A DNA stretch of 64,000 nt. Origin: Trogon surrucura. Lineage: Eukaryota; Chordata; Aves; Trogoniformes; Trogonidae. Both the position numbers and the translations under genes were made by a program. Location of the stretch: NCBI GenBank assembly GCA_020746105.1, contig CM036628.1, forward strand, positions 20,727,191-20,791,190, read 5' to 3'. The number at the start of each line of letters is the position of its first letter. Position 1 is the first letter of the stretch. This document shows, in pieces, positions 21,852-60,683 of this stretch. The notes beneath the pieces were generated by a model, which saw only the letters and a program-made list of their open reading frames with translations, was not told the origin of the DNA and did no database searches.

Positions 21852-24800
21852 TTAGCTTTCCTCTTTCTCGGCTTCCTCCTTCTCGTCTTCGTCATCTTTC
21901 TCCCCCTTGAGCTTTTGGCGGGCGAATTCCTCGATGACGATGTCCTCCTCACTGGAAGGGAGAGCAGAGCGTGGTCAGCATTCCGGACAACAAGGCTAAA
22001 TCTCTGCTGGCACCCAAACCGTGCTCCTGCTAGGGGACAGACTAATCTCTTTGTCTTTTGGGGACGGACCCCAAACACTCGGCAAAAAAGTCAGGTCACT
22101 GTAAGCCACAGCCTGACCCCAGCACACAAATCCAGGGCAGATCACTGGCTGGGCTGCGAGCGTGCGTGAGCAGAGGAGCTGGGCTCTCTCCTGCAACTTT
22201 TGGCCGTTTTTAAGACAATATTTTGCATTGTCAAGGGGAAAAAAGGGAAGGAAAAGATATTAAAGCCGAGACAAAGAGATTAGTTACCTCCTTGCGAAAG
22301 GCAAGCAGCGGGTGACATCGAGGGAGAGCCGCAAAATGAAAAGCGGGGGAAGAAAATGGAAAAAAAAGAGTCAGCAAAACCAATTCCAAGAGCTTACAAA
22401 TGTTTAACGGCTTGGCAAAATCTACAGGGAGTGGTGGTGGGGACAAGCCAAGAGGCTTCCTCCTCTGGAAGTTTAAATATCCTTGCTGAGCTGGGAAACG
22501 GATAAGCTTTGGTGTGAAAGCCTTGCAGTTGCAGCCTAAGTTTCCAAATACCGGGGCTCATGTCCCATTGCAGGGTTTAACCGGACACAAAATCAGCCCT
22601 TTTGGGGCTTTGCAAGCCAGGGCCGGCGGCGGGGCTGGTCTGTGGCCGTGGCTGCCAGGGAATGGGTTTGGCACGATGCGCCTTCCTAGCAGGAAGCAAC
22701 CCCAGCTGTAGCTTCAGCTGGGATAAGCTCATGTGGTGGGAGGAGAAGAGGGCTCTGGCAACAGGGAGTGTGCAGGGACACAGGGCTGTGACCAGCGTGG
22801 CTTCCAGCGGCTGAGGGAGCTTGGCATGAGGTGGGTGGGAACTGCGGCCGGAGGGGATGTCGTGTCTGGTGGTGACGCTCGTGACTGGGAGATGGAGCGC
22901 TGCTGGCTGCGGCCGAGGAACAAGGTGAGGTCTGGGCTTGCAGCAGGAGAAGCTGCTGTGTTTGCGGCAAGCAGAGTTGTAAAATAAGCCCTGGAAATTT
23001 GCAGAATGCGTGCTGAGCCCGGCATTTGAATCCTCCCAGGCTGTGACAACGCTCCTGCTGCCTGTGCCAGCGTGGAGGGGTGTCATGCTGCCTGCTGTTA
23101 CACAGGGGCTCCGGGCTTGAGGCCTGGGTGATTTAATCCAAGGGTGTAACCTCAGGCTGGAACGGGGCATCGCATCCATCTGTGATGGATCTGCATCATT
23201 TATGTGTTAGAGGAAATACTGGCTTGTGGCATAAGGAAGCATCTCTTTACCTTGGGTTAACTGTCGTCCATCGATAAGCAAAGCACAGGGAGGCAAGGAT
23301 AGAGACACACATGCAGGTTAATAGAGAAAGGACATTTCAAGTAACATGTTTTTAACGCTCAGGTGTTTTAGTGGGAAGAGAGATGTTGGGATGGGTGGCA
23401 GCTGGGGAACAGAGCTGCTCACATGGTGGCAGGTCCTAGGCAGAGGGTGGCCACCAGCTGTGTGTGTCCCACTGCCAGGGCAGAGCACGGCCCTCTGCAT
23501 GGCGGCTGCATCAGTGGGGCTTTTACCAGCTCCCCTCCTGCCTCTTCCTCCACCGCGTTTCAGCAGCATCCCAGGTGCTACTTACCGTCCTCAGGCTTTG
23601 GGTGCATCAGGATGACGGGCACCTCGACTCCGACGTCGCTGGAAGGAAAAGCACTTCTTTCAATAAACCCGCCCCGGCACCACGCTGTGCGGGTGCTGCG
23701 CGCCGTGTCACGCTCAGCCCCTCGGGCAGCTCCCTCCTTACCTGGAAGTGAGATCCCCCAGGATGCTGCAGGAGAGAAAAGACAGAAATCATCCAAGGCA
23801 GAGGAGGGGAGGTGTTTTATAATAACATACAAGATGATTAATAATAGTGTTGAAGGGCAGCAGCGATGAGGATGAAGGGATGGGTGTCAGAGAGCTCAGC
23901 TCCATGCCGGGAGCCCAGTGCATGGCTGCCCCACGCCCCAGGGGAACAGGGCAGGGATGAGGGGGCCCCTTCACCATCTGCCTGGTGGCATGAGACCCCA
24001 CAGCATGACCCAAGAGGACGGTCCTTAACCCCGTGCCACAGAGTCTCACCCTCCTCGGGACACCACCAGGTTGACCTTCACTTTGTAGGACACCAGGATG
24101 CCCAGCACTTCCTTGTCCATGCCGGGTCTCAGCCTAGGAGAAGAGCAGAGTGGAGCGGTGAGGCAGGCAGCGCTGATCGCGGACCCCCATCCGATTCCCC
24201 CACGGGGTTGTCTCTGGGCCCCGTTCCATGTGGGGTGCACTGAGAGAGGACAAAGGTGAAAGGGGAGGGCAAATCACTTGGGCTGAAGCCACAGAGCAGT
24301 TTCTGGAGGACATTTGGATTGCCTGAGCTGGGATTCACTCCCAAGATGAGACCCAGTGCACCTCTGAGATACAGGGGGGCTTTGAACGACAGTGAGGAAG
24401 CTGTGTCTCTCCTATGAGAGACAGAGAGGTGGGTCTATGGCTGTGTCACAAAATCCCTATGTTTTCCAGCTGGATAAGCTGTCGGAGTCAGGGGAAGGCA
24501 TGGGTCTGGCTGTGGTGGGGTGCCAAGGGGAGCCCACACAGCTCTTACATGGTGGTGGAGGCCAGGTTGGTGTCCTCGTGCTTGAGCTTGCCATCGAGAG
24601 CGAGGCCTCGCTTCTCACGGTTGTTCGAGAGCAGGGGCGTGACGGAGTAAGTTTTGGTGAAGGTAGAGTTGGCTGCCACGGTCTCACTGGAAGGGGTGGG
24701 AGAGGAGAGCTCTGAGCCAGCACGAGCACGATGGGCACTCAGCACCCATCGGGGATGCTCAGCATCGCACCAGCCACCTGGGCAGAACCAGACACCCCCC

Positions 24801-27800
24801 GCGCTGCTCTCCCCACACAGCTGCCTGAGCCTGTTTCCTCCTTTCGTTCTCTTATACAACCACTTCTTTTTTCTACCCCCCCGACCTTCGCTGCAGCCCT
24901 CCTTGCTCTCAGGCTGCGGCTGGCCTCAGCAATGTGAAGCGAGGAGAGGAAGCAGCTGGGGACGGGCTGCACACCGTCCCGCAGGGACCTCCCCAGCCTA
25001 CACAGGCTTACGCTGGTGTCCACAGCCTGCCTTCGCCTCTGCTTCCTCTGCATCTGCTCTTCTAACCCTGATATTTTTGCCACCCGGTGTAAAACCATCT
25101 TCCCTACCCCCTCTCCCCATCACTCATCTCTCCTACTCCTTTCTTTTCTTGCCTCTGGCCTGGATGCCTTGACACCCCCAGCCCCTTTTTACTTACTTTA
25201 TCTCCTCAGTGCACACAGTCTTTGTATATTTATCCAGTGAGTAGAGGACCACGTCTGTGATCTGATCAACTGAGGAGGCACAAGAAGGAGCAGCATCGGT
25301 GACACAGAAGAGGCACCAGTGTGCAGTCCCCACCTCTGACAGGGAGGCTGGGTTGCGATGTGTGCCGGGATGTGCCCCTCCTGCCCCCCTCCTCACCTGA
25401 GATCTTAATTTTTTTCACAATCTTGTTGGTGGTGTTGTTGATGTTGACAGTCACGTTGATGGGGTCTCCATGATAGTAGATCTGCAGTGGGAAGAGGCTC
25501 CATTACACGACCGGGCATCCCAGTCCCTGTCCCTAGGGTTGCATGTGGTGACACGAGCGGAGGGATGCCCCCCTTGGTACCCACCTCCTTGTCCAGGGAG
25601 GCTTCAAGGTGCAGGGGCTTGTCGGACATCATGAACTGCCGGGTGGTTTCCGACTTTGGAGCTGGCCCCGTCCTCATGGGTGCAAACTGGATCTTGCGGA
25701 TGATGAGGCGCACTGAGTTCCTGCGGGATGAGAAGCTGTCACTCCTGGCCCTCCCCGGCAAGGACCTGGCCTTCGAAGGGGACATGCTGGCTGTGTTCAG
25801 GGCCATCGAGGGGTCTCCAGCCAAAGGATGGGAGCTGCAGCCTGCTCTCTGACACGGGGACCATTGCTGCTCCTTCAGGCAAAGCGCCTGATCCAAGCGT
25901 GGCACAGGCTGACAGCAGCAGGTCCTTGGCCCGACCGCTAAGCTGGCCACCCCGAAACAGTCCCACGGTTTGGTTTGAGGGCCGTGAGGCACAAAGGGAT
26001 CCCCTGCAAATACCTCTTGTGAATTTTCTCCTCCAGATTTTCAGCACAAAATCCTTTGACCTCGAAGTCCACGCCACAGGCCTGGGGGGACACATACCGT
26101 CACTCATCAGGAGGAGCTCAAAGCTGCCTGAGGTTTAGGCTTATTCCCCTCCTCCTTCCACTGCATCACCCCTGGAGATCCTGCTCCCAGCTCCAGCTGC
26201 TCTTCCTCCCCAACCCTCATCCCACGGGCCACATCCTTGTGAAAGAGCAGCAGCTCTCATTTTTGGCACCCCGCAACTTCACCCCCTGCCAGGGAGAACG
26301 TGTCGAAGGGACACTTGTTGGGACAGCGGCTCACCTTTCCCACATCGTCTGGTCCTGGCTGGAGGGTGACCGAGCAGGGGAGGTTAGGGGCAATCTGAGC
26401 AGAACGGGAAAAGAGAGAGAAAAGATAAATTAAGAGCATGCCCAGAGATGAACCCTGGTGCACACCATGGAGGTGTGTGGTCAGGAAGGGCTGAGCGGCC
26501 CTTACCTCGAAGGTGAAGGGGTAGGCATTCTCCCCAAGCTTCTTCAACAGCCTGTCCTGCAAAGGAGTGAGGGTTTTCGGTGCCTGGTCTGGCACCGGTG
26601 GGAAGATCTGGGTGGTCAGGACGTAGATGTCCTTCCTGAAGGTCAATCCGATAACGTCGAGGTCATCTCGGCCGTAGCGAAACGCACAAGTCAGCGTCAC
26701 GTACACTGAAGCCCGACGGAAACAGAGAGGAGCAAGGTTAGGGGGTGAGATAAAGGGAGAACACAGGGAAAAGGGTGAATAAAGAGGAAAGAAAAAAAGA
26801 AGGAAAGAAAAACCACTTCAGTAACTCTTCAGCAGAAATATGAATCTGTTATGAGGACCTGGACCTCAGACACTAAATATAAATTTAATGAGAATCATTG
26901 TGTCTTTCTGCAAGGCATCAGTAACTTCAGAGCTGGTGCCCCAGGTAGGAAAGATGAGAAGAAAGACGCAGCCTTCCCCTCCAGGTCAGCTGCCGTGGCC
27001 CTGACATACAATGAGCTGTAGACACACGTTACACCTCTAACCTGACTACAGTCCCAGGTTGCTGATGAGCTCTGCACTGTTTTACATCCCTCCCTCTTAT
27101 AATGTGGGGTTTTCGGTATTAAATACCTTTTCTGTCCTTTAGGTACTCCGGGTCAAGCAGGCAGACGCCATCTGCAAACAAACAGAGAAGGGCCGGTGAG
27201 CTCAGCTGCCTGGGAAGATCCTTACAAAAACAGATCCTTAAAATTCAGATAATCTGCTCATCAGCAGCGAAGGTGACCCAGGGAAGCTGCTGGTCACGGG
27301 GACGGGGATGCCTCACCCAGCAGCAAGGCTGGGTTGCTTTCCCCCTATTTTTCTGTAAGGGTATTTTAAGGAAAACGAGATATTTGCTCAGCCGGAGCTG
27401 CCCTTGCTCCCTGGGCTCTGGTGGGAAGCAGAGGTGAGCAGCCACTGGCATGGGGACTGTTCCCCTTGGGCCACTCACTGCCCATGCTTCCCCTTCACTG
27501 GCGGGCACGGCCCCACTCACCTACAGAGTCCACTGAATCCACGTGATCCACAAAATCTCTCTTCCCCAGGTAGAGGGATAGCTGGAGGCAGCGCATGGGG
27601 AAGGAAAGAAGGAAGTGGGTTAATGTTTGCCACTGCATCGGATGAGATTTTCAAGCCCCGGGTTGTGTCGTGGGGTTCGTTAACCGTGCCGTTAGTGTGT
27701 CGGACCAACATCGCATCGAAGGGGTCATATAGGGCTTTTTTCTTTTTCCGCGTTTCTATTTTGAAAAGCAAGCCCTGTAGTGGCAGGTATGGCAGGAGTT

Positions 27801-28468
27801 GATCGTGGGATTTCAAAGGGAAAGAAAACCCAGCCCAAAGGGAGGGGCAGAGCCAGCCCAGAGGATCCCCAGCATAGACCCACACCCAGGGACAGGGCGC
27901 GTGGTCTCACCTCCGTGTGCCTGCACTCACCTTGCTGTTGGGGCTGGTCTTCTTGAACACCCTGCAAAGGAAGAATAGGCAGGCGGGTTGGGAACGGCTC
28001 GGGTGAGGCTGGATGGGACCCAGGGAGGGGGGTGGCCATTTGTCTCGCTGGGGCAAGGAGGCGAGGGCTTCCCTGAGAGCGCGGTGCATCTCCAAGAGCT
28101 ACACCAGAGCGCCTGGCCTTGGGGAATTCGGCGTCCTGCAAATTCAGAGCCAACCCGTGCCCCATCTGACTGCCCCCAGGGGTGTCACGCTCCCGTGACC
28201 ATCAAGGAAGGGGTGCTTTAGCTGGCTGTGTCTTAAGGACGAGTGAGGAAGCATGAACACGCAGAAGAAAAGAGAAGGTGCTTTGTTTGCCCCGTGACGG
28301 CTCGCTCCACCTTGCTATGGCCAGCTCATGTACCCGCACATGGGGGCAGCGGGTAGGGAGAGCCGGTGGGGCTTTCTTTCTCCCCCTGCTCCTGCCCCGC
28401 AGCACCCTGCTGCATCTCTATTGAAATAAAAAAGGAAAACCAGACACTTACTTCCTCCCGTCTGCCAT
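21852..28468 (-). CDS. ARR3: ARR3, cone arrestin
   Basis: Sixteen coding exons, listed in minus-strand order: 28468-28452, 27961-27931, 27581-27521, 27171-27127, 26705-26506, 26394-26335, 26081-26014, 25720-25585, 25481-25397, 25269-25197, 24686-24549, 24133-24050, 23765-23742, 23638-23586, 23260-23251 and 21951-21852. They join in phase to 394 residues, beginning [16 protein letters not shown] and ending [15 protein letters not shown]. The arrestin fold is recognisable: [60 protein letters not shown] and [20 protein letters not shown]. Cone arrestin binds phosphorylated, light-activated cone opsins and ends their signal. The C-tail keeps the [13 protein letters not shown] segment expected of visual arrestins, followed by an acidic end. 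The order ARR3-RAB41-PDZD11 matches human Xq13.1. Confidence 0.97.
23251..23260 (-). other. ARR3: ARR3 10-nt microexon
   Basis: The exon before it (23638-23586) ends in phase 1, and the last exon (21951-21852) reads as arrestin only if it is entered in phase 2. A spacer exon of length 3n+1 is therefore required. Ten bases flanked by GACAG and GTAAAG fit exactly and give the bridge [16 protein letters not shown]. Human visual arrestin genes are known to have a 10-bp exon at this place. Confidence 0.8.
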
Positions 28469-33942: not shown

Positions 33943-36900
33943 ATGGCGGCGGCAAGCTGGTACCACCGGGACATCAGCAGGGTGGTGGCGGAGGAGCTGC
34001 TGGCCAAAGCCGGGCGGGACGGCTGCTTCCTCGTGCGGGACAGCGAGTCGGTCTCAGGGGCTTATGCCCTCTGCCTCCTGTGAGTCACCTGCCTGGCTTC
34101 TTGCTCTCATCCCTTGCTGGGGTTCCCCTGTCCCTGCTCCTGGCACAGCCAAGCCTCATGTCCAAGCCTCCCGTGGGGATGCCGGCAGAGTGCCAGCTCT
34201 CTGGCACAGGGGGTTTTTCGGGTGATCCCCAAGTGGAGAACCCCATGTCCTTGGGAGCAGGCAGAAGCCTGGGCCAGCAGCCCTGCCCAGCAGCAGGGGC
34301 TGCCAAAGGGAGAACCTGAAATCCAGGGCATGCAGAGCCCTTTAGGGCTGCCTCATGTGGGAGAGGCTGGCTCGTGTCGCCCTCCCTCTTCAGAAAAAAA
34401 CATCCCCTCTCCCTCCAACCCCCGACATGGCCGCATCCGGACCGCGACGCCCGCTGTTAGCATCTCGGCCGCTGGCGCTTCGAGGCTGCGTCTGCTCGCC
34501 TGGAACGAGGCTCATGGCCCCGAAGAGCACTGCTGCTGGGGCTGCCTGCACCCCTTCATCGCTGCCTGCACCCCCTCATCACTGCCTGCACCTCCTGCCT
34601 GCTGCCTGCACCCCCTCATCACTGCCTGCACCCCCTCATCGCTACCTGCACCCCCTCATTGCTGCCTGCACCCGCTCCCTGCAGCCAAGCGACGCGACAC
34701 GTCTGCAGCAGGGCGGCGTCTCGGCGGGTTTGGCAGGATGCCACCCCCTTTTCCTAGAGCTAAGCCTGGCCCAGAGCACGGGGCAAATTGCAAACACGCG
34801 GTGCCGAGGGGCACACCAGGGGTTCAGCCGGCAGCTACCTCGGCTCTTCCAGCATCCCAGGGCCGTAGGTGCCCTGGTAAAGGCCGGCGGAGATGTGGCT
34901 GAGCCCCATGGCTGAAGCGGGGGGACCCCGTGCATCCTCCCAGGCAGACGGGTACAAACCCAGAACAGTGGGTGATGCTTTCATTTCTAGAAATGAGAGC
35001 TAAGTTCCTCTCCCTGCAGAAGGGATGGGGAGTTTGCGTCAGGGCTGGGCACCGCCAGGCATCCCCCCCTCCCACGCTGCCATGTGCCCACGGTGTCTTG
35101 GGGGGCACAATGGGGGCCCCTCGTCTGCTTTTTCCCAGGTTCCAGCGGCACGTCCATACCTACCGCATCCTCCCCGATGACGAGGGGCTGCTCTCCGTCC
35201 AGGTGGGTGCAGCAGCAGGTGCCCAGAGGCTGGCGGCCGTAGGGGTGCACTCCCTGCACTGGCTAACACTGCTGTGTGCCTGGCTGGGGGGGCACAGGCT
35301 GTGACCTGGAGCCTGGGCAGGTTGCAGGTGCTGAAGCCCACACACCGAGCTCAGAGAATTGGTGCCTGCCCTCCTTGGCAGCTGATTTATTTATTTTTTT
35401 TTGCACAATCTTCCTCCAACACCCAGCACTGCAGGATACGAGTGCTTTGCAGCCACCCCTCTGGCACAGGGCTGCCTCCCCACAGCCCCACGGCTGCAAC
35501 CAGCCCACCCAGGGCAACACAGCAAAGCGCTTGTCCCCTTCCTGCCATCATCCCCAGCCCCAGCCAGGCCACCTGGCTCCGGTTTCGTCCCCACGACATC
35601 TGTTCTGGCTGCCGGCTCAGCTTCGCTTCCCCTCTTTAGTGCCACATCACGGTTCTCTTGGTACCCAGCTCTGCAGCTGCTCTTTCTAGCCTCCTAAAAC
35701 CAGCATCCCTGGGGAGCACCCCCTACCTGCTGCACAAGGCAGACATCTCCACGCTCCTCTCCTTGCCCTGCTGCCCTGACAGGGGCCAGGGTGAGCTCCA
35801 GCCAGCACTGCCAGCTCCCCACATTTTGGGGGACAAACCGACTCGGCACAGAGACAGAGGAAGGGGGGACGACGTGATGGTGCTTCCCTTCCTCTGCCTC
35901 CCCAGACCATGCAGGGCATCCAGGCCAAGTGTTTCCGCACCCTGCCCGACCTCATCGGTGCCTACCAGCAGCCCAACAATGGGCTGGTGACGCCCCTGCT
36001 CTACCCTGTGCCCCGGGCGAGGCAGGTGGCCGACGAGGACTCGGGTGAGCCAGGGAGGAGGCGGCGGGGGCCACACTGGGCTGTAAGTGAGCGAAGGGGT
36101 CCCTCTGAGCTCGCTTGTCCTCCGCCTGCAGACGGGGAGGATGGGCGAGGCAGTGGGAGTGCAGCGAGTGCGGTGGTCCCGGCCGGCGGAGCCATGGCGG
36201 GCACGTGGCTTGGCGCTCCCGTCGCTGGCCGGCCCCACATCTCACAGCAGCTGCACCAGAGGCTGCAGGAGCAGGTGCACAGCAGGTAAGGAGCCCCTGC
36301 CTGCCCTGGAGGTGATGGAGATGGGGAGATGGGAGTGGGATCTTTCCAAAGATGCCCACACCTCACCTTGCAGCCCGGCCAGTGACTTCATGGGCTTCAT
36401 GGCGGAGTACCTGAACCACAACCTGCAGCTGGATCTGGAGGCTCTGCGCCATGGGCACCCACAGCTCCGTCACCTCAGCACCGCTCTTGTCACCGCCTGT
36501 CGGGGGCTGCACAGGTGAGTGGCCCAGGAGCAGAGGGGATGGAGTGCGGACACTGCCCGGGACCACCCGCCTCATCCCCATCACGGTGGCTGAGCATCAT
36601 CACCAAGCACCAAGGCTCAGGAGATGATGCCTGTGCTGGCTCTCACCCACTCCTCTCCTCTTTGCAGTGAGATTGACTTCACGCTGGCAGGACTGGAGAC
36701 GCTGGCCAGGGTGTTCGACCCCCCGGCATCCCCTCGCAGCCCAGCCAGAGAGCAGGTGAGACCCCCCCCAGCCCCTGACCACCCACAGGCGCCTTGTCGC
36801 GTGTGGCTGGTGCAGCCGCTCTGTGGAGGGGGCAGTCGGGGCGGTTTCAGTGCTGCGCTCCTGCAGTGCTGCTGGTGGTCCCTGTGTGCTGGCAGAGGGG

Positions 36901-39900
36901 ACGTGGCTCCCTGTGGCCTGGGGACAAGCAGGGACTCGCTCCTGCACTCAGTCTGGGTCACATCTGGGCAGGGGAAGCTGCTTCCCCTGCCAGACCTCAG
37001 GGAACCTCACGTCTTGGGGTGCAACGTGTGGGCATGAATCTGCTCCGGTGCCACTGCACTGCTCCAAAAAAACATATGTCCTTGCCCGCAGGGTCTCCTG
37101 AGCAGCGATCCAGACCTCGAGCTGCTCCTCAACAAGATATCTACTGTCAACCATCTCCTCTCTTCTCTGGAGAAGAAGGTACCTTCCTCCCTCCCCTCCC
37201 TTGGTGCCAAACTGGGGGTGGCACAGCTGGGGAACCTCACTCTGCTCCAGCAAACCCCTCACCTGAATCAAACCCCCAGCAAAGCAACGTGCTGGCGGCA
37301 GCACAGCCCAGTGCCTGGTGCCCGTCTCTCCCACAGGTGCTGAAGTCGCTGCAGGAGACGGTGTCAAGGCACAACCTGGCACTGCCCAGCGTGGTGGCAG
37401 CCCCGCCGCCGGCCGCCAAGCCCCTGGCCGTGCAGAGCTTTGAGGTGAGGGCTGGGGGGGGCACAGCAGGGCCCCCGCTCAAGCAGAGCCAGGGGGTCCG
37501 ACGCGGCAACTGCATCCCTGTGTGCAGGTGAAGGTGGGCAAGTCGCAGCGGGCAGCGCTGACGGTGGATGTCGAGTCGGGCACGGTGGCTGTCACCAAGA
37601 GGGGAAGTGGTTCCCCAGAGGAGACCATCCCTCAGGACAAAAGTAAGGGGCTGCTGACACCACCCCCCCCAAACCAACGGGGTGCTGCGGGATTCCTTGC
37701 AACGGGCCTGATGCCAGGGTGATGGGCTGCAGAGCTGGTGGTAGCCCAAGCCCCCATCCTAACTTTGGGAGGGGGGCACTACTGCCCCCCTCACGCCCAG
37801 CATTCAGTCCTGCAGCTGATCAAATACCAGAGCATCCAGAGCAAGGTGAGGCTGGTGTACGACCGGGAGCCACAGCGGAGCCTGAACAGGGACTTCGTCT
37901 TCACCAGTGCGCGGGTGAGCGGCAAATACAGAGATTTGTCACATACCTCAGCAAATGAGGGGTCTCAGGGTTGAGACCACCCCTGCAAGACAGCTCCTGC
38001 GCTGGGGGCAACGTCCTGCTTTGGGACCCTGACACCCGAATTGTCCTGCAGAAGCGAGAGGCCTTTTGCCAGCTGCTGCAGTTGATGAGGATCCAGCACT
38101 CCAACCTGGACGAGCCCGACCTCATCTCGGTGTACATTGGGACGTGGAACATGGGTGAGGGGCCAGGAGAGGGTCACGTTGTCCTGGGCACTCGTTGTGA
38201 GCCCGGGTGCTGCAGGGAGCTGGGAAACCTGAGGTCTGAGTGGGAGGAGGATGCTGGAGAAGATGCCAACCTGTCTGCTCTTGGGTTTATCTGTCCTGTC
38301 ACAATCCACTTGCCTGGTGGCTGTCAGGGCAACAGAGGAGCTGGGGGTCCCAGGAGGGTTTTGGATGGTAGCAGCAAATCCCAGCATCAACCTGGGATGC
38401 ATGTGGTGCTGGCATGATGCTTCCCTCCTGGAGATGCTTCCCTCCTGGTGGGAGAGGTGCTTGAGGAGCCCTGCACGCCACATCCCACCCCGTGCCGTGA
38501 CCTGCCGTCCCCTGCCTGCAGGCAGCACGCCACCCCCCCGCTCCCTCGCCTCCTGGCTGACCTCGAGGGGCTTGGGGCGCACACAGGATGAGACCACCGC
38601 CTGCGTCCCCCACGACATCTATGTCGTCGGCACCCAGGAGAACTCCCTGGGCGACCGCGAGTGGGTCGAGTTCCTCCGCGCCTCGCTGAAGACCCTGATG
38701 GCCATCGACTACCGAGTGGTAACAGGGAGGGGGGGGGCACTCAGGGCTGAGCAACCTGCAGACATCCCAGCAGCACCCTCCCCCCATCCCCCAGGGCTCT
38801 GACCCCCAAACACAGGGTCCTCTCCCACCCCAAGGAGCCCACTGTGCGCCACGTGCTCCATGCAGGGGGACCCACCTTGCAGAGCTGGGTTGGCTGACCT
38901 TCCTGCTTGGCCATGGGAGGGAGGAAGGAGTGGGGAGATTCACCCCCTGCCCCTCCACCCAGGTCGCCCTTCAATGCCTCTGGAGCATCAAGATCGTGGT
39001 GCTGGTGAAGCCCGAGCATGAGCGACGCATCAGCCACGTCCACACGTCCAGCGTGAAAACCGGGATCGCCAACACCCTGGGTACGGATTAGGGGGGACAC
39101 CCCAGGAGGAGGGGGTCACCCCAGGACCTCTGGGCTCCCCCAGAGCTCAGACCCCGGCATATCCCTGCAGGAAACAAAGGAGCTGTGGGCGTCTCCTTCC
39201 TCTTCAATGGGACCTCCTTTGGCTTCGTCAACTGCCACCTGGCCTCCGGCAGCGAGAAGACCCACAGGTGATGGGGGAGCACAGGTGGGACGGGGCTGGC
39301 CCGGGGCAGGCAGGTGTCTCAGGGTGCTGGAGGAGCCCTGGTGGGCTGTGAGGCTGCCCCTGTCCCCCTCCTGTCCCCACCTGGTGGGTACAGGATGAGG
39401 ACGAAGTGTCCCCAGGGTGGCTCACGTGTCCCTGCCGCAGGCGTAACCAGAATTACAGCGACATCCTGCGCTCCCTGTTCCTGGGCGACAAGTGGCTCGG
39501 AGCCTTCGACCTCACGCTGCGCTTCACCCACCTCTTCTGGTTTGGGGACCTCAACTACCGCCTGGACATGGACGTGCAGGTGGGACTGCAGTTAGGGTCG
39601 GTGGCACAGCGGGCTGAGGGGAGCCGGGGCTCACGGCGCCTTCCTCCCGCCGGCACAGGACATCCTCGCCCACATAACCAAGAAGGAGTTCGAAGCCCTC
39701 CTGGCTGTCGACCAGCTCAATCTGGAGCGGGAAAAGAACAAGGTGTTCCTGCGATTCAGTGAGTGCTCCCCACACTGAGCCCCACACCCAGGGTCCCCAT
39801 GGATCCCTCCCCGGGCCACCTCCAGCACCCGGCAGCGCCCTGGTCTGGCACAGCCCTGTGCAAAATGCCGAGGTGGCCTCAAGTTGCGCCAGGGGAGATT

Positions 39901-42900
39901 TAGATTAGATATTAGGAAAAATTTCTTTGCTGCAAGAGTGGTGAAGCTCTGGAACAGGCTGCCCAGGGAAATGGTGGAGTCGCCATCCCTGGAGGTGTTC
40001 AAAACACATGCAGATGTGGCACTTGGGGACATGGTTTAGTGGTCATGATGGTGTTGGGTTGATGGTGGGACTTGATGGTCTTAGAGATCTTTTCCAACCT
40101 TACTCCATGCTGCTATGAAAGCCTTGACGTGCACACTGCGAACCCTCGGTGGGACCCCCACACGGGGACTGCGACACCCCATGGGTGTCAGCTGTGGGGA
40201 CAGGCTGATCCGTGTTGCCACCTCTGTGTCTTTGTTCCCAGGAGAGGGTGACATCTCCTTCCCCCCGACGTACCGCTACGAGCGGGGCTCCCGGGACACC
40301 TACATGTGGCAAAAGTTCAAGCCCACGGGAGTGAGTTCCTGATGAGCTCCCATCGAGCTGAAGAAGCACATCGTGAGGGGACAGGGACAGAGGGGGCTGC
40401 GTGGTGATGCTCAGTGCCTTTTCCTTCCCTCTGGGTTGGAGAGACCTCACTTTTTGGGGCACTGGTCACTTTTCTGGGCTGGAGGGGAGGCCAGACCTAA
40501 GGGGACACTAAAGGCAGCTGCTTTTCCCATTTTTAGATGAGGATCAACGTCCCCTCGTGGTGTGACCGCATCCTGTGGAAGTCACATCCAGAGACCCACG
40601 TGGTCTGTAACTCCTACGGTGAGTGAGACCCCAGGACTAGGGGGACACTGGGACTCAGGGACTGTCACCCACCTCTCCCCTCCTGCCACTCAGGCTGCAC
40701 CGACGACATCGTGACCAGCGACCACTCGCCCGTTTTCGCCACATTCGAGGTGGGAGTGACGTCGCAGTTTGTGCCCAAGAAAGGTGAAGGGTCAAGGGCC
40801 GGTGTCCCCCTCCTTGTGCCCGGTTTGGGGTGAGCCCCGGGTGCTCACTGACCCACTGGTACCCACCTGCAGCCCCAGGATCCAGCCCCGAGCCCCCAGC
40901 ATGCATCGAGTGGGAGAGCATCGAGGTCATCGTGAAAACAGCCAGCCGCAGCAAGTGCTACATCGAGTTTCACTCCTACTGCCTCGAGGGTAGGTTGGTC
41001 CTGGGCGAGTGGACACACTGGAGGGTTGAGTCAGCCCTGGTTGGAGCTGTGCCCCCGCCCTGGCTTTCCCCTGACAGAGGTGCAGCGGAGTGGGGAGAAC
41101 ACCTCCCAGAGCTGCGACGTCCCGGGATTCCTCAGGCTGGTCTGGGCTGCAAAGCATCTGCCTGTGGTACGTGCTGGATCCTCCCTCATCCCTCATTCTC
41201 AGCCCTCCTCTTCCCCACCTCTCCTGCACCCTGAGCCCTAAGGGGTGCCAGGGGCTGTCACCATCCCCCCCCCTAGAATAGAACCCCTCTCCAAGGACCC
41301 CTCTCTCTGCATACAGCTGAACCCCATCCTGCCGGACCTGGAGTACCTGGGGGACCAGCACCTCCTCCTCAGCATCAAGGGCGTGGAGAGCTGCGAGTCC
41401 TACGGTGTGCGCGGGATGATGGAGTGACAGAAGGGACCCAGGCACCCACCCCGCTCCAGGGTGCTGCTGTGTATTGCTGGGGGCTCACCTGCCCCCTCAA
41501 GCTGCCCGGGAGGAGGGGGGTAACGTGCGCTGTGCCCACAGGGGAGTGCTGCATTGCCATGAGGTCAATGATCGGCAGCATGGCCCAGCAGTTCGAGACA
41601 TTCCTCTTCCACCATGGCGAGGAGACGGGCTCTATCCGTGGCTGGATGAAGGTCCGAGTGCCCAAGGATGTGCACGGCACCCGCGAGAGGCTCTACGGTA
41701 AAGCCCCCCTGGCTCCATTGCCCTGGGCATGGCGTGACTGGGAGCTCCCCGTGCCCCTGATGCCCTCCTGGACCCCCATGTGGTGCCTGGAGGGGAAAAA
41801 ACCAGATTTCGGTCCATTTGCAGAGTGGATCAGCTTTGAGGAGGAGGATGCTGAGCCAGTGGCAGATGCCCCAAAATGCCCCAAGCCCTCCCAGCAGCGC
41901 ATCAGGTACTCCAGCAGGGCTCAGCATCACCACGAACCCCACCCATGGGGTGATGCTGAGCCCCGTCTCACCGCACTTCGCAGGAGCCGGCCCCGCAGCC
42001 TCCCAGAGCCAGCTTCCAGCTACACCAACCCAGCTTACTTCATCTTTGAGGGGGTCCCCAACACGTGGGGGCCAGCCCCCAGTGCCAGCGAAGCCCACGA
42101 GAAGGACTCAGAGAGCCCGGCTGGGAGTCAGCGGCGCTGGGGTCCCCTCGGGGTGCAGGTCCCTTCGCCCTCAGGAGAAGAGCGGTGGGGTGGCCGGTCG
42201 CGCTGCATGCTGGGGGGCTCCTCCTGCGGGTGCCCTCTCAGCCCCCTCGGTGCGGGCCAGCAGAAGAGACCCAAATCGGCCGTCCTGGCAGGGCCGGGCG
42301 ACTGCTCGCTGACGGCGCTGCACATGGCCACCTGCCTGAGCCAGCTGGACCGAGTGATCCCCGAGCGAGGTGGGGACAGCCAGAAAACACTCCTGGGACA
42401 GACCCACAGCACCCTGGAGCCACCCCCACGGCCCCGGCGGGAAGTGCCGAGGGGCACACTGGATCCTCGCCAGCATGGCCACCCTGGAGAGGTACCGCCA
42501 TGGGGCTCCGGAGCTCGGCCGAGGGGCTTGGGAAGCTCAGGGAGGGGGTGAGAAACTCTTTTTGGCCACAGAGCCACCTGCAGATGCGAGGTCCCGGCCC
42601 TGTGGCAAAGCTCCTCCTGATGGAGCTGCCGCGGGACTGGCGGTGGGATGCGGGAGGAGCAGCAACGCGCCCAGTTCACACGGGATGAGGACACAAAGGT
42701 GGGGACAGCGTAGCCCTGCTCTGACGACTGGTGTGTGTCCTTCTTTCCCCAGTGGCCGTGCAACAGGGGTGAGCGGTCCCACGGCGTCAGCAGGTGCCTG
42801 GGCCAGGACGGGCTGCAGGAGCACGGCTGGGACCACGAGGACATCTTCAGGTACCCCCAGGGCCTGGAGCTCGGAAAGGGGGGCACCGTGCTGGACACCT

Positions 42901-43172
42901 CCTGTGGCCCTGGGGTCCCTGGCAGAGCCCCGCGCCCCAGCGGGGAGGAGAGGTGAGCCTGGAGGGGGGATTTGGCAGGGCAGTGATGGGGAATATCAAA
43001 TCCTCGCATCTCAGGGGATGCCCCTGGGCCATGCGGGCTCCCTGCTCTGCCAAGCACTCCCTCGAGCCACACACAAGATGTCACGGAGCGGGACGTGCTG
43101 GATACTGGGGAACTCAGCCCCACTCCCCCCCGGCTCAGCCCCGGCAAGCTCGGCGAGGGCTGGCAGTGGTGA
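33943..43172 (+). CDS. SHIP-family SH2-domain inositol polyphosphate 5-phosphatase (third paralogue candidate)
   Basis: Twenty-seven phase-consistent exons give about 1132 residues. Starts and ends: 33943-34079, 35139-35202, 35906-36044, 36132-36285, 36374-36514, 36668-36755, 37092-37178, 37337-37444, 37528-37642, 37808-37914, 38052-38154, 38522-38718, 38963-39080, 39171-39267, 39441-39579, 39659-39758, 40242-40330, 40537-40618, 40694-40783, 40873-40989, 41078-41166, 41317-41404, 41542-41697, 41824-41905, 41984-42491, 42753-42850, 43067-43172. SH2 (residues 5-112) has FLVRDSES with its phosphotyrosine-binding Arg. The phosphatase (about 405-710) has [44 protein letters not shown] and SDHSPVF. 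Then come a C2-like region, an NPAY motif near 912 and a worn SAM-like end. An in-frame TGA just upstream fixes the start. SHIP enzymes convert PI(3,4,5)P3 to PI(3,4)P2 at the membrane. Gene order argues against INPPL1 and INPP5D themselves. Confidence 0.92.
34541..34680 (+). repeat. Minisatellite, 7 x 20 bp, in SHIP-gene intron 1
   Basis: Seven head-to-tail 20-base units of the form gctgcctgcaccccctcatc, each starting exactly 20 bases after the last, with one to five substitutions per unit. Confidence 0.95.
39882..40122 (+). repeat. CR1 LINE 3'-end fragment in SHIP-gene intron 16
   Basis: Sense CR1: gatttagattagatattagg, aatttctttgctgcaagagt, ggaacaggctgcccaggg, catccctggaggtgttcaa and a closing ttttccaaccttactccatg. 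It lies wholly in the intron between 39758 and 40242. Confidence 0.9.
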
Positions 43173-43687: not shown

Positions 43688-43693
43688 AATAAA
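43688..43693 (+). terminator. SHIP-gene poly(A) signal
   Basis: AATAAA about 515 bases past the proposed stop at 43170-43172, in otherwise unremarkable 3' UTR. It is the first signal downstream. Confidence 0.6.
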
Positions 43694-46700: not shown

Positions 46701-48010
46701 GCAGGCGAGGCTTTGCAGGGAGAAGATGGATGGCAGCCCGGCTCACCCCACAGACACACCCTGTGGGGCGTTCCTGCCAACGGCGCTTGTCACGAGAAGC
46801 TGTCAGGCTGCACATCGTCGTGGAGAAGGCAAGGGGCAGACAGGAGGGGGGTGCTGAGGGACCTGAGGCATGAAGGAGCCCGGGAGGATGCAGCCTTCCA
46901 CCTCGTATCCCCGTCATCTCCCTGTGCCCTCCTCTGTCCTGGCACCCATCATCTCCTGGGTGAGCTCTGGACCCACAGAAAGCAGAGGCGTGTCAGAGCT
47001 CCCTCCGTCAGACGTGGTTTGGGCTACACCTGGCAGGGTGGCAGATGCTCCTGCTCTTAGGTTCCTCGTCTGAGCATCCATCCTTGGCTGACAGACTGGC
47101 TGCCCCAAAATCGCTTCTCCAGAGGGGGTGGAGGGCAGCCTTCGCTGGACACCACGACACTGGCAGAAGCTCCTTCTCCTGTCTGGAGGCGCAGACTCTG
47201 AGCTCTAGGTGAACACAACCCTGAGCTCTAGGTGAACACAACGCTGACGTGCCGAGGGGATGCAGATCCCAGCCTTGGATCTGTGTGAGGGGACACGTCC
47301 CTCCCGCCTCATGAACTTGCACCGTCTGGAGCTGGGACTTGGCTCCGGCGCGTCTCCTCTCCGCAGGGCTTAGATCATCCCTCTCCTGTGGAGAATACCC
47401 GGCAGCTGGAGGCCCCTCACCGTCCGGGGACACTCTCCCAAAGGCTCCTCTAACAGCCCCCAGAGGATTTCTCTGGGCCATGATATTCCCCTAGACAAGC
47501 CTTTCTTCTCCTCCTCCCGCCTTTCTTCTGTCAAGGAGCCCTTGGGGATGTGCGGCATTGTCAGGATGGTGCCAATTAGGCTGAGCTGGCTTCCAAGAGC
47601 TCGCGCTGGCACCGGCCGGGGGCTGCTGTTGCTCATAAAGGTCTCATTGTTCGTCGCGCCGTGGGGCTGCTGCCCGGCGGGGCCGGCGCGGTCCTCTTGT
47701 CCCAGGCACGCTTCCCGGCCCCGCGCGGCGCTGCTGTCGCTGCCCGCTGCTCCGAGGGGGTGATGGATGGGCGTCGTGGCGGGGGCGGCAGAGGGGAGGG
47801 CTCACTGAGCCTCCCCCAGTTCCCCCCCACGAGGCCTGGACGCGCGAGCTGAGAAAAACCAGAGAACCATCAAAGCGGCCGGAGCTCCTGGAGGTGGGGG
47901 GGGGGGGGGCGGGCAAAAAGAAAATCTGGCATCTTTGGCCCCCTTCCACGCTTTGTGCCTGACAATGGTGGGGATCAACGACTAAAGCGCTTTTATTATC
48001 CACTCCCCTA
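43710..48010. other. Intergenic DNA before P2RY4
   Basis: About 4.3 kb without a recognised coding exon. It has GC-rich, degenerate repeats at 44250-44445 (units built round gggg-ct/cacggtcccc) and a two-copy 37-44-bp repeat at 44523-44605 (gacagccca-agc-ttcgagg). A CpG-rich block ending CCGCAG/GTGAGC at 44850 could be a noncoding P2RY4 first exon; it holds a short upstream ATG frame. A poly-G run lies near 47895-47909. The remainder shows nothing that I can name. Confidence 0.4.
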
Positions 48011-48027
48011 GATCTGGCTCGGAGGAC

Positions 48028-49149
48028 ATGGCTGCTTCGGGGAGGACGTTCCCAGTTGCCCCGTGGACACCGACAGCTCCTTGGCCGGGGGGAAACACCA
48101 CGGCGGTGGCAGAGGAGAAGTGCGTCTTCAACGAGGAGTTCAAGTTCATCCTGCTGCCTGTCTCCTATGGCATCGTCTTCGTGGTGGGGCTGGCCCTCAA
48201 CTCCTGGGCCTTATGGATCTTCATCTCCAGGATGAGGCCCTGGAACGCCACCACCACCTACATGGTCAACCTGGCCATCTCCGACACGCTCTACGTCCTC
48301 TCCCTTCCCACACTGGTTTACTATTACGCCGACCGCAACAACTGGCCCTTCGGGACGTGGCTGTGCAAGATGGTACGCTTCCTCTTCTATGCGAACCTCT
48401 ACAGCAGCATCCTCTTCCTCACGTGTATCAGCGTCCACCGCTACGTGGGCATCTGCCACCCCATCCGCTCCCTGAAGTGGGTGAAGACCAAGCACGCCCG
48501 CATCATCTGCGTGGGTGTCTGGCTTGTAGTCACCATCTGCCTCATCCCCAACCTCGTCTTTGTCACCACCAGCAACAAGGGCAACAGCACCCTGTGCCAC
48601 GACACCACCAGGCCCGAGGAGTTTGACCATTACGTTCACTACAGCTCCTCCGTCATGGCCCTCCTCTTCGGGGTCCCCTTCCTGGTGATTGTCCTGTGCT
48701 ACTGCCTGATGGCCAAGAGACTCTGCAAGTCCAGCTTGTCCAGCCCCGGCCCCCGAATGCCCTCCTACAAGAAACGCTCCGTCAAGATGATCATCGTCGT
48801 GCTCACCGTCTTCGCCATCTGCTTCGTGCCCTTCCACATTACCCGGACCATCTACTACACCTCCCGCTACTTCCAAGCCGACTGTCAGACCCTCAACATC
48901 ATCAACTTCACCTACAAGATCACTCGGCCCCTGGCCAGCGTCAACAGCTGCCTCGACCCCATCTTGTACTTCATGGCTGGGGACAAGTACCGGGGGCGGC
49001 TGCGCCGGGGGCCAGCCCGGCACCTCCGCTCCGCGCCCACGTCTGACCTGTCCCTGGTGTCCCCCTCCATGGACAACGTCATGGGTGGCAGCCACACTGC
49101 CAGTGACACCCGAAAGGTGGGGACAGCACAGAGCAGAGGCGGGTGCTGA
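48028..49149 (+). CDS. P2RY4: P2RY4, P2Y pyrimidinergic G-protein-coupled receptor
   Basis: One uninterrupted 373-residue coding exon with seven hydrophobic segments (about 39-66, 76-98, 111-140, 158-181, 206-231, 253-276, 295-318). Family marks are FKFILLPVSY in TM1, NWPFGTWLCK before TM3, HRY at 137-139 in place of DRY, HDTTRPEEFDHYVHYSS in loop 2, the TM6 HxxR at 270-273, KITRPLAS in TM7 and SCLDPILYF. Loop 2 is near identical to P2RY4 as opposed to P2RY2. P2RY4 responds to UTP (and ATP in some species) and couples mainly to Gq. N23 is a glycosylation sequon. An acceptor CCCCTAG at 48005-48011 suggests that the coding exon follows an upstream noncoding exon. AATAAA lies at 49592-49597. Synteny with ARR3 and IGBP1 agrees. 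Confidence 0.95.
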   Translation: MAASGRTFPVAPWTPTAPWPGGNTTAVAEEKCVFNEEFKFILLPVSYGIVFVVGLALNSWALWIFISRMRPWNATTTYMVNLAISDTLYVLSLPTLVYYYADRNNWPFGTWLCKMVRFLFYANLYSSILFLTCISVHRYVGICHPIRSLKWVKTKHARIICVGVWLVVTICLIPNLVFVTTSNKGNSTLCHDTTRPEEFDHYVHYSSSVMALLFGVPFLVIVLCYCLMAKRLCKSSLSSPGPRMPSYKKRSVKMIIVVLTVFAICFVPFHITRTIYYTSRYFQADCQTLNIINFTYKITRPLASVNSCLDPILYFMAGDKYRGRLRRGPARHLRSAPTSDLSLVSPSMDNVMGGSHTASDTRKVGTAQSRGGC

Positions 49150-58900: not shown

Positions 58901-60683
58901 CCAGTTCTCACAAAAAGCCTCTAAAACACCGTGAAGCAAGAGCCTACCTCTCGATTTTGGTTTTCCTGCTCAAAGCCATGGCCACCAGGCTGGGCTGGGC
59001 AGCGACGGGGCCCCTCGGCGACGGGCTCCCGCCGTCCTCCTCCCCTGAGGAGGGGCTGCGGGCAGCGGCAGGGGGCAGCTGGAAGTCGCCGATCCCGTAG
59101 CTCTTGCAGAGCTTGAGGAAGCTCCAGAACTGGGCGCGGGCGCTCTCCAGGTGCTCCAGCCTCTTGCTCAGGTCCACCTGCTTCACGGTGAGGGCGCCCA
59201 GCAGAGCGGGCACCAGCAGGTACCGCAGGTCGGCCGAGGCGATCTCGTCCAGCTCCTCGTTTTCGCTGCGAGGGGAAAGAAAGGATAACAGAGTCATAGA
59301 CTGCCGGGTTCGAAGGGACCTCAGGGATCACCTAGCCCAGCCCTCTAAGGTAAAGACAGACAGTTTAAATGGGCTGGCCCAGCACCTTGTCAAGCTGAGC
59401 CTTAAAACTGTCTCAGCACCCTCAGCAAGTTTGCTGATGATACAAAGCTGGGAGGGGTGGCTGACAACCAGGCAGGCTGTGCTGCCACCCAACGAGATCT
59501 GGCCAGGTTGGAGAGCTGGGCACAGGGGAACCTCATGGAGTTCAATAGGGACAAGTGCAGAGTCCTGCATCTGGGGAGGAATAACACCAGGCACCAGCAC
59601 AGATTAGGGGTCACCCTGCTGGGAAGCAGCCCCAGGGAGAAAGCCCTTGGAGTCCCAGTGGGCAGGGAGTTGTCCCTGGGACAGCAACGGGCCCTTGTGG
59701 CCAAGAGAGCCAGTGGGATCCTGGGGGTATCAAGAAAAGTGTGTCCAGCAGGGCTGGGGAGGTTCTCCTCCCCCTCTGCTCTCCCCTGGGGAGACCACCC
59801 CTGGAATCCTGTGTCCAGTTTGGGGCTCCCCAGTTCCAGAGAGATGGGGACCTACTGGAGAGAGTACAAGGGAGAGCTGGGACCTCCTCCCTTCATCATC
59901 CTCGTAGCTCTCCGTTGGACTCTACGAGTCCAACGGAGAGCTACGAGGATGACGAAGGGACTTGAAAATCTCTTCTCAGTGGTGCCCAGCAATAGAACAA
60001 GGAATAATGGGTTTAAGTTAGAACATAGGAGGTTCCACCTCAACATGAGGAGAAACTTCTTGGCTGTGCGGGTGCCGGAGCCCTGGCCCAGGCTGCCCAG
60101 AGAGGGTGTGGAGTCTCTGTCTCTGGAGGCTTCCAAAAAAGCTCCTGTGGGGCTGCCCTGGGTGACCCTGCTCTGGCAGGGGGTGGCACTGGGTGATCTC
60201 GAGGTCCCTTCCAAGCCCAGCCTCGTGTGATTCTAAGGCTGGGGAAGCCGCCCCCGCTCTTGGAAGCCGATTGCGGTGCCCGGTTGCTCTCACGACAGGG
60301 CGGCCGGGGCGGGAAGGGGCCTGGAGGGATCACGGGGCCGCACAGATCCCGACCGTCTCCACAGACGGAGGCCCCACGGTCCCTCTGGGCAGCCTGTGCC
60401 GGCGCTCCGCAACCCCCACAGCACAGAATTACTCCTTCCCGCCGCCGGACAGAGCCTGCCCGCCCCCGGCGGAGGACAACGCGCAGGGCCCTCACCTGAA
60501 CAGCTCCAGCTCCTGCACCATGGCCGCCGCCCGCCGCAGCGCCTCCAGCCCCCGCCGCACCTTCTCTTGCACCGCCGGAGCCCCCGAGGAAGGCTCGGCG
60601 CCGTTCTCCGCCTCCTCCCAGAGCCGCCGGCCCGATTCCAGCAGCTCGGCCAGCCGCGGCGCCGCGCCGGGACCCTCCGCCAT
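55929..60683 (-). CDS. IGBP1: IGBP1 (alpha4), PP2A-catalytic-subunit binding protein
   Basis: Six phase-consistent exons: 60683-60496, 59265-58948, 58008-57813, 57208-57123, 56437-56325 and 56077-55929, totalling 349 residues (human about 339). It begins [20 protein letters not shown] and contains [58 protein letters not shown] and [15 protein letters not shown]. It ends with an acidic run, then [20 protein letters not shown] and MG. IGBP1/alpha4 is the vertebrate Tap42 homologue: it holds and stabilises free catalytic subunits of PP2A, PP4 and PP6, downstream of TOR signalling. The conserved C-terminus and helical-repeat N-terminus are complete. The last intron ends in two adjacent AG acceptors. 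Its promoter is a CpG island with ETS-like sites. Confidence 0.96.
59289..59415 (-). repeat. CR1 LINE fragment (antisense) in IGBP1 intron 1
   Basis: Reads as antisense CR1 3' end: agtcatagactgccgggttcg, gggacctcagggatcaccta, gcccagccctc. It abuts a sense CR1, giving an inverted pair. Confidence 0.7.
59416..60236 (+). repeat. CR1 LINE 3' portion with residual ORF2, in IGBP1 intron 1
   Basis: Sense CR1 of about 820 bases. Its frame from 59457 still reads reverse-transcriptase C-terminal text ([30 protein letters not shown]), interrupted by an inserted inverted repeat at 59896-59952. It finishes with the usual 3' UTR (ggttccacctcaacatgagg, cttccaagcccagcctcgtg, gattcta). It is a truncated, non-functional copy. 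Confidence 0.92.

Follow-up and report, generated by a model that had tools for sequence, protein, structure and literature searches.

The locus between ARR3 and P2RY4 in the bird Trogon surrucura raises the question of whether this genome holds a third SHIP-type 5-phosphatase gene and, if so, where that gene came from. SHIP signalling is treated as a two-gene system, with SHIP1 found mostly in blood cells and SHIP2 widespread. A third SHIP gene was not found in the open-access literature among the matches listed, and the present locus may already be listed as INPPL1-like by automatic annotation. We analyzed a window of 64,000 nucleotides (C15:20727191-20791190 of the 1.17-Gb T. surrucura genome); positions without a contig name are positions in this window.

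A SHIP-type gene between ARR3 and P2RY4

The window carries a SHIP-type gene, to which we gave the working name SHIPX, on the plus strand at 33943-43172, with the ATG at 33943 and the TGA ending at 43172, exactly as placed in the preliminary description. Its 27 exons have canonical AG/GT borders and join into a chain of 1136 amino acids in which the terminal stop is the only one (Table 1). Exons 1-24 (33943-41905) encode 896 stop-free residues, and 21 of the 24 were matched by tblastn at INPPL1, which lies on C1 of this genome. Exons 4 and 8 had no tblastn match in that locus and are supported by their splice sites and reading frame, and exon 24 was placed there weakly. The earlier claim of a full set of spliceable exons holds for the 27 AG/GT exons and their uninterrupted frame, but exons 25-27 are less certain than exons 1-24, their borders having been set from the reading frame and from similarity to the tail of INPPL1. 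The end of exon 25 has an alternative donor at 42369, and the acceptor of exon 27 was picked by frame. We compared intron phases with the phase left free and the search places set by hand from tblastn, leaving out exon 1. Entry and exit phases agreed with the INPPL1 locus in 21 of 21 exons tried, and with the INPP5D locus in 15 of 18, exons 9, 16 and 21 differing in entry phase.

No clear CpG island was seen at the SHIPX promoter (CpG observed/expected 0.32-0.57). Intron 1 contains a tandem repeat at 34541-34677 (20-bp unit, 6.8 copies), and intron 16 contains, at about 39890-40100, what we take by eye to be the 3' end of a CR1-type retroposon, a mark of avian genomes.

Table 1. Position of SHIPX features and of its immediate neighbours in the window
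Feature	Position	Strand	Evidence
SHIPX exons 1-3, N-terminal SH2 domain	33943-34079, 35139-35202, 35906-36044	+	Gene model; Pfam SH2 1.5e-17; nearest solved SH2 domain, SHIP2 2mk2 (E 1.8e-43)
SHIPX exons 4-8, linker from SH2 to first C2	36132-36285, 36374-36514, 36668-36755, 37092-37178, 37337-37444	+	Gene model; tblastn match to C1 for exons 5, 6 and 7, none for 4 and 8
SHIPX exons 9-10, first (PH-like) C2 domain	37528-37642, 37808-37914	+	Pfam C2_SHIP1-2_first (PF24150) 4.8e-23
SHIPX exons 11-19, inositol 5-phosphatase domain	38052-38154, 38522-38718, 38963-39080, 39171-39267, 39441-39579, 39659-39758, 40242-40330, 40537-40618, 40694-40783	+	Pfam Exo_endo_phos2 1.2e-71; phmmer to SHIP2 5okm 4.3e-235 (phosphatase+C2)
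SHIPX exons 20-23, second C2 domain	40873-40989, 41078-41166, 41317-41404, 41542-41697	+	Pfam C2_SHIP1-2_2nd (PF24147) 1e-41
SHIPX exons 24-25, tail with NPXY motif	41824-41905, 41984-42491	+	Gene model; homologous NPAYYVLEGVP at C1 locus
SHIPX exons 26-27, probable degenerate SAM-domain relic and stop	42753-42850, 43055-43172	+	Alignment to bird INPPL1 SAM; no Pfam SAM match
AATAAA polyadenylation-like signal 3' of SHIPX	43688-43693	+	Sequence
ARR3 (visual arrestin) exons, divergent neighbour	24049-27963	-	Arrestin_N 3.4e-8; tblastn with an arrestin query
P2RY4-like receptor ORF, downstream neighbour	47986-49146	+	7tm_1 6.1e-58; best paralogue at C1:3185268 (59%)

Domains and catalytic residues

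Four domains of SHIPX passed the Pfam cut-off: an SH2 domain, a 5-phosphatase and, on either side of the phosphatase, the two SHIP-specific C2 domains. The closest solved proteins, for the SH2 domain as for the phosphatase-C2 unit, are those of SHIP2. The SH2 domain carries the phosphotyrosine-binding motif FLVRDSES, the arginine of SH2 domains being the residue that binds phosphotyrosine, and the preliminary description had rightly called this domain intact. The motifs of the 5-phosphatase are likewise intact (34 residues), and phosphatase motifs of 27 residues, together with TSDHSPV, match SHIP2. Chain 5okn has A for the D of WFGDLNYR, and SHIPX has D at the aligned site. Exon 25 holds the NPAY motif that had been noticed before, and SHIPX thereby combines the features of the SHIP family: an SH2 domain, a 5-phosphatase with its motifs, two flanking C2 domains and an NPXY motif in the tail.

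At columns that are invariant in the bird and reference SHIP1 and SHIP2, SHIPX keeps 218 of 247 and has changed 29. Where both SHIPs, OCRL and INPP5B are all invariant it keeps 57 of 59, with Y in place of F and D in place of E at the other two, and this count agrees with the earlier claim of a phosphatase with every catalytic motif. Against bird INPPL1, 498 codons from 14 gapless exons gave pN 0.181, pS 0.485 and dN/dS 0.26, an average in which a recent relaxation could hide.

The C-terminal tail

The SAM domain of bird INPPL1 is intact, with a Pfam SAM_1 match of 1.1e-13 over two exons (C1:4446532 and C1:4446227). No Pfam model matched SHIPX exons 26-27 in the search that returned this control. 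Alignment of the SHIPX tail to the bird INPPL1 SAM domain nevertheless scored 63, compared to 23.5 +/- 4.4 for shuffled sequences, none of which reached 63 in 2000; exon 26 alone scored 37, which six of 2000 shuffles reached. The SAM-homologous part is four residues short in its first part and seven residues longer where the two exons meet. The C-terminus of SHIPX is probably the relic of a SAM domain and is predicted to be non-functional. In the preliminary description the gene had been called complete, which stands for the SH2-phosphatase-C2 portion but not for a tail of the SHIP2 type.

The decayed SAM domain and the uncertain last exons could also be read as signs that constraint on the gene has relaxed, or that the gene died recently and its frame is intact by chance, and the longer branch of SHIPX in the tree described below (0.29 versus about 0.17 for SHIP2, the root lying somewhere on the SHIPX branch) would fit such a reading. 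Set against this are the 24 stop-free exons, most of them with an INPPL1 match, the near-complete retention of family-invariant columns and the low dN/dS. We consider relaxation or recent death of the gene unlikely.

INPPL1 and INPP5D elsewhere in the genome

A whole-genome search with the protein of SHIPX exons 1-24 gave 56 matches, of which the best candidates were scored. They resolved into three loci, namely the window, C1:4448201-4458404 and C12:20445238-20492259; the rest were single-exon matches to other SH2 or 5-phosphatase genes. A separate check for stray relatives in bacterial and archaeal contigs produced 107 pattern matches and no confirmed one. In phosphatase+C2, translated exon by exon with split codons omitted, the C1 protein is identical to the reference (solved) SHIP2 at 409 of 449 positions (91%) and the C12 protein to the reference (solved) SHIP1 at 393 of 448 (88%), and we therefore assigned C1 to INPPL1 and C12 to INPP5D. 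Over the same domains SHIPX is 72.4% identical to both bird SHIP2 (347/479) and reference SHIP2 (326/450), and 56-57% identical to bird SHIP1 (273/475) and reference SHIP1 (249/446).

The presence of both genes outside the window bears directly on the possibility that SHIPX is the only INPPL1 of the bird in a new place. Its SHIP2-like sequence would agree with relocation, but INPPL1 is present on C1, 91% identical to reference SHIP2 and with its SAM domain intact. A moved INPPL1 is thus refuted in this genome and retains practically no probability.

Gene neighbourhood

The order of genes in the window is a PDZ-domain gene (+), a RAB6-like first exon (-), ARR3 (-), SHIPX (+), P2RY4 (+), a DGAT2-family gene (-) and an IGBP1/TAP42 gene (-), which bears out the earlier placement of SHIPX between ARR3 and P2RY4. 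Gene names beyond the domain level, PDZD11-like for the PDZ-domain gene among them, are presumptive. The name ARR3 is likewise presumptive and follows from the place of the gene, the best solved match of one of its exons being beta-arrestin-1. Some 6 kb separate the start of SHIPX from the first ARR3 match, which is on the opposite strand. Human Xq13.1, which we take to have the order PDZD11-RAB41-ARR3-P2RY4-AWAT1/DGAT2L6-IGBP1, repeats the order of the window minus SHIPX, and the human ARR3-P2RY4 interval is not known to contain a SHIP gene. An ORF at 59406-60230, in the stretch occupied by the IGBP1/TAP42 exons, looks by eye like the tail of a CR1-like reverse transcriptase.

The other two SHIP loci have comparable company. 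An arrestin exon lies at C1:4221317, about 225 kb from INPPL1, and another at C12:20537096, at a distance of about 45 kb from the matches for INPP5D; from their sequences we take these to be ARRB1 and SAG, respectively. A classical arrestin therefore stands near a SHIP gene in all three loci, and close P2Y paralogues occur in two. Besides the best paralogue of P2RY4 on C1 (59%; Table 1), there are two with 44%, one at C1:3221852 and one at C12:811377, which is some 20 Mb away from INPP5D. Together with the P2Y paralogues on C1, the threefold pairing of SHIP with arrestin speaks for an early paralogon duplication. PMC5795056 places the four arrestins in one paralogon on different chromosomes while allowing for a local duplication before 2R, and its text mentions neither INPP nor SHIP2.

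Among the genome arrestin matches examined, no locus was assigned to ARRB2, a weak negative given that the ARR3 of the window was missing from the matches too. PMC5501109 reports that ARRB2 may have been lost in birds; its main text contains neither INPP nor SHIP. Two arrestin-domain copies with identical scores lie about 32 kb apart at C61:3191759-3205913 and C61:3223591-3237746, and stem either from a recent tandem duplication or from duplication in the assembly.

Phylogeny and age of the duplication

We built a maximum-likelihood tree from SH2+phosphatase+C2 of SHIPX and of the bird and reference SHIP1 and SHIP2, and rooted it on an outgroup of OCRL and INPP5B, both partial, under LG+G4. 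Bird and reference SHIP2 paired to the exclusion of SHIPX with aLRT 97.7 and ultrafast bootstrap 98 (98.2/95 with the outgroups), and SHIPX fell outside both INPPL1 and INPP5D. In the AU test (JTT+G4), grouping SHIPX with bird SHIP2 (0.020), with reference SHIP2 (0.0056) or with either single SHIP1 (~1e-37) was rejected. The SH test rejected only the grouping with a single SHIP1, leaving SHIPX+bird SHIP2 at 0.336 and SHIPX+reference SHIP2 at 0.325. The sharing of sites was symmetrical: SHIPX agreed with bird SHIP2 only at 14 sites and with reference SHIP2 only at 14, while the two SHIP2 proteins agreed with each other and differed from SHIPX at 114 (all alike, 380; all different, 23). Counts of 14, 14 and 114 form the pattern expected of a duplication that predates the bird-mammal split, an age that is favoured by the AU test and the site pattern but not by the SH test.

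These results removed two simple assignments. SHIPX is not an INPPL1 orthologue, because it lies outside the SHIP2 pair, another INPPL1 is present and its SAM region has no Pfam match; the AU values for grouping with either SHIP1 rule out an INPP5D orthologue. A further alternative is that SHIPX is a fast-evolving INPPL1 duplicate of the bird or sauropsid lineage that only looks old. It draws on the greater closeness of SHIPX to SHIP2 than to SHIP1 and on the tolerance of the SH test, and it has to contend with the AU rejection, the support for the SHIP2 pair and the even sharing of sites. Such a duplicate would also have needed a chance insertion into the ARR3-P2RY4 block, when ARRB1 and the closest P2RY4 paralogue sit on C1 with INPPL1. 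We judge it very unlikely.

In the best outgroup-rooted tree, SHIPX was basal to SHIP1+SHIP2 (RELL bootstrap proportion 0.83; free tree 88/85), as might be seen if SHIPX were a SHIP duplicate from before 2R, for example a tandem copy, that became the sole survivor in the ARR3 block. The difference was not significant, as the AU test kept SHIPX as sister to SHIP2 (0.169) and, at a borderline value, as sister to SHIP1 (0.054), so that SHIPX may have branched before SHIP1 and SHIP2 or together with either of them. A distant and partial outgroup can moreover attract long branches, and one SHIP gene per arrestin block is the simplest arrangement. We judge a pre-2R duplicate unlikely.

Origin and putative function

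The reading that accounts for these observations, and which we hold to be very probable from sequence comparison, is that SHIPX is a third SHIP paralogue that arose in the genome duplications of early vertebrates and was retained in this bird; as parts of the same reading, SHIPX would be the SHIP copy of the ARR3 paralogon, INPPL1 that of the ARRB1 paralogon and INPP5D that of the SAG paralogon. The preliminary description had proposed such a surviving third copy and had suggested that separate INPPL1 and INPP5D genes be sought; the recovery of both, the tree and the SHIP/arrestin synteny support the proposal. Weighing against it are the basal position in the rooted tree, the tolerance of the SH test, the decayed SAM domain with the 29 changed columns, and the P2Y paralogue at C12:811377.

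The putative function of SHIPX may be sketched from its domains. The SH2 domain would bind tyrosine-phosphorylated receptors and bring the protein to the membrane, and the phosphatase-C2 unit would remove the 5-phosphate from PI(3,4,5)P3 to give PI(3,4)P2, as SHIP1 and SHIP2 do; its action would be expected to lower Akt signalling. Coupling between phosphatase and C2 is probably kept, as SHIPX retains, within FDLTLRF, the F and L that are replaced in 5oko, a loop that presumably faces C2. The SAM domain of SHIP2 has EphA2 and ARAP3 as partners, and without a SAM domain SHIPX should have lost recruitment by them. Its divergent position close to ARR3 hints at possible expression in photoreceptors. 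More tentatively, and with a small chance of being right as a whole, SHIPX may represent a third active SHIP class in birds, perhaps in many non-mammalian vertebrates, that may be free of docking by SAM partners and may serve photoreceptors.

With a third intact SHIP gene in a bird, a two-gene scheme may fall short when results on bird PI3K signalling are interpreted. Comparison with SHIPX would show, in a natural setting, what a SAM domain contributes, and on the map of vertebrate duplications the gene occupies the place of SHIP in the ARR3 block. Should a loss of SHIPX from mammals be confirmed, it would allow a clean study of how its role passed to SHIP1 and SHIP2.

Comparison with SHIP1 and SHIP2

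Among known systems SHIPX most resembles SHIP2/INPPL1 (5okm, 3nr8, 2mk2; bird C1). The order of SH2, first C2, 5-phosphatase, second C2 and NPAY is shared, as are the intron phases in every exon tried and the F and L positions within FDLTLRF, and identity in phosphatase+C2 is at its highest. SHIPX differs from SHIP2 in its separate locus, its decayed SAM domain, its diverged tail and its position outside the SHIP2 pair in the tree. With SHIP1/INPP5D (6dlg, 5rw2, 2ysx; bird C12) it shares the order SH2, C2, 5-phosphatase, C2 and most of the intron phases tried, but the identity in phosphatase+C2 is considerably lower. SHIP1 and SHIP2 are told apart by 117 columns; in 71 of these SHIPX agrees with SHIP2, in 16 with SHIP1 and in 30 with neither.
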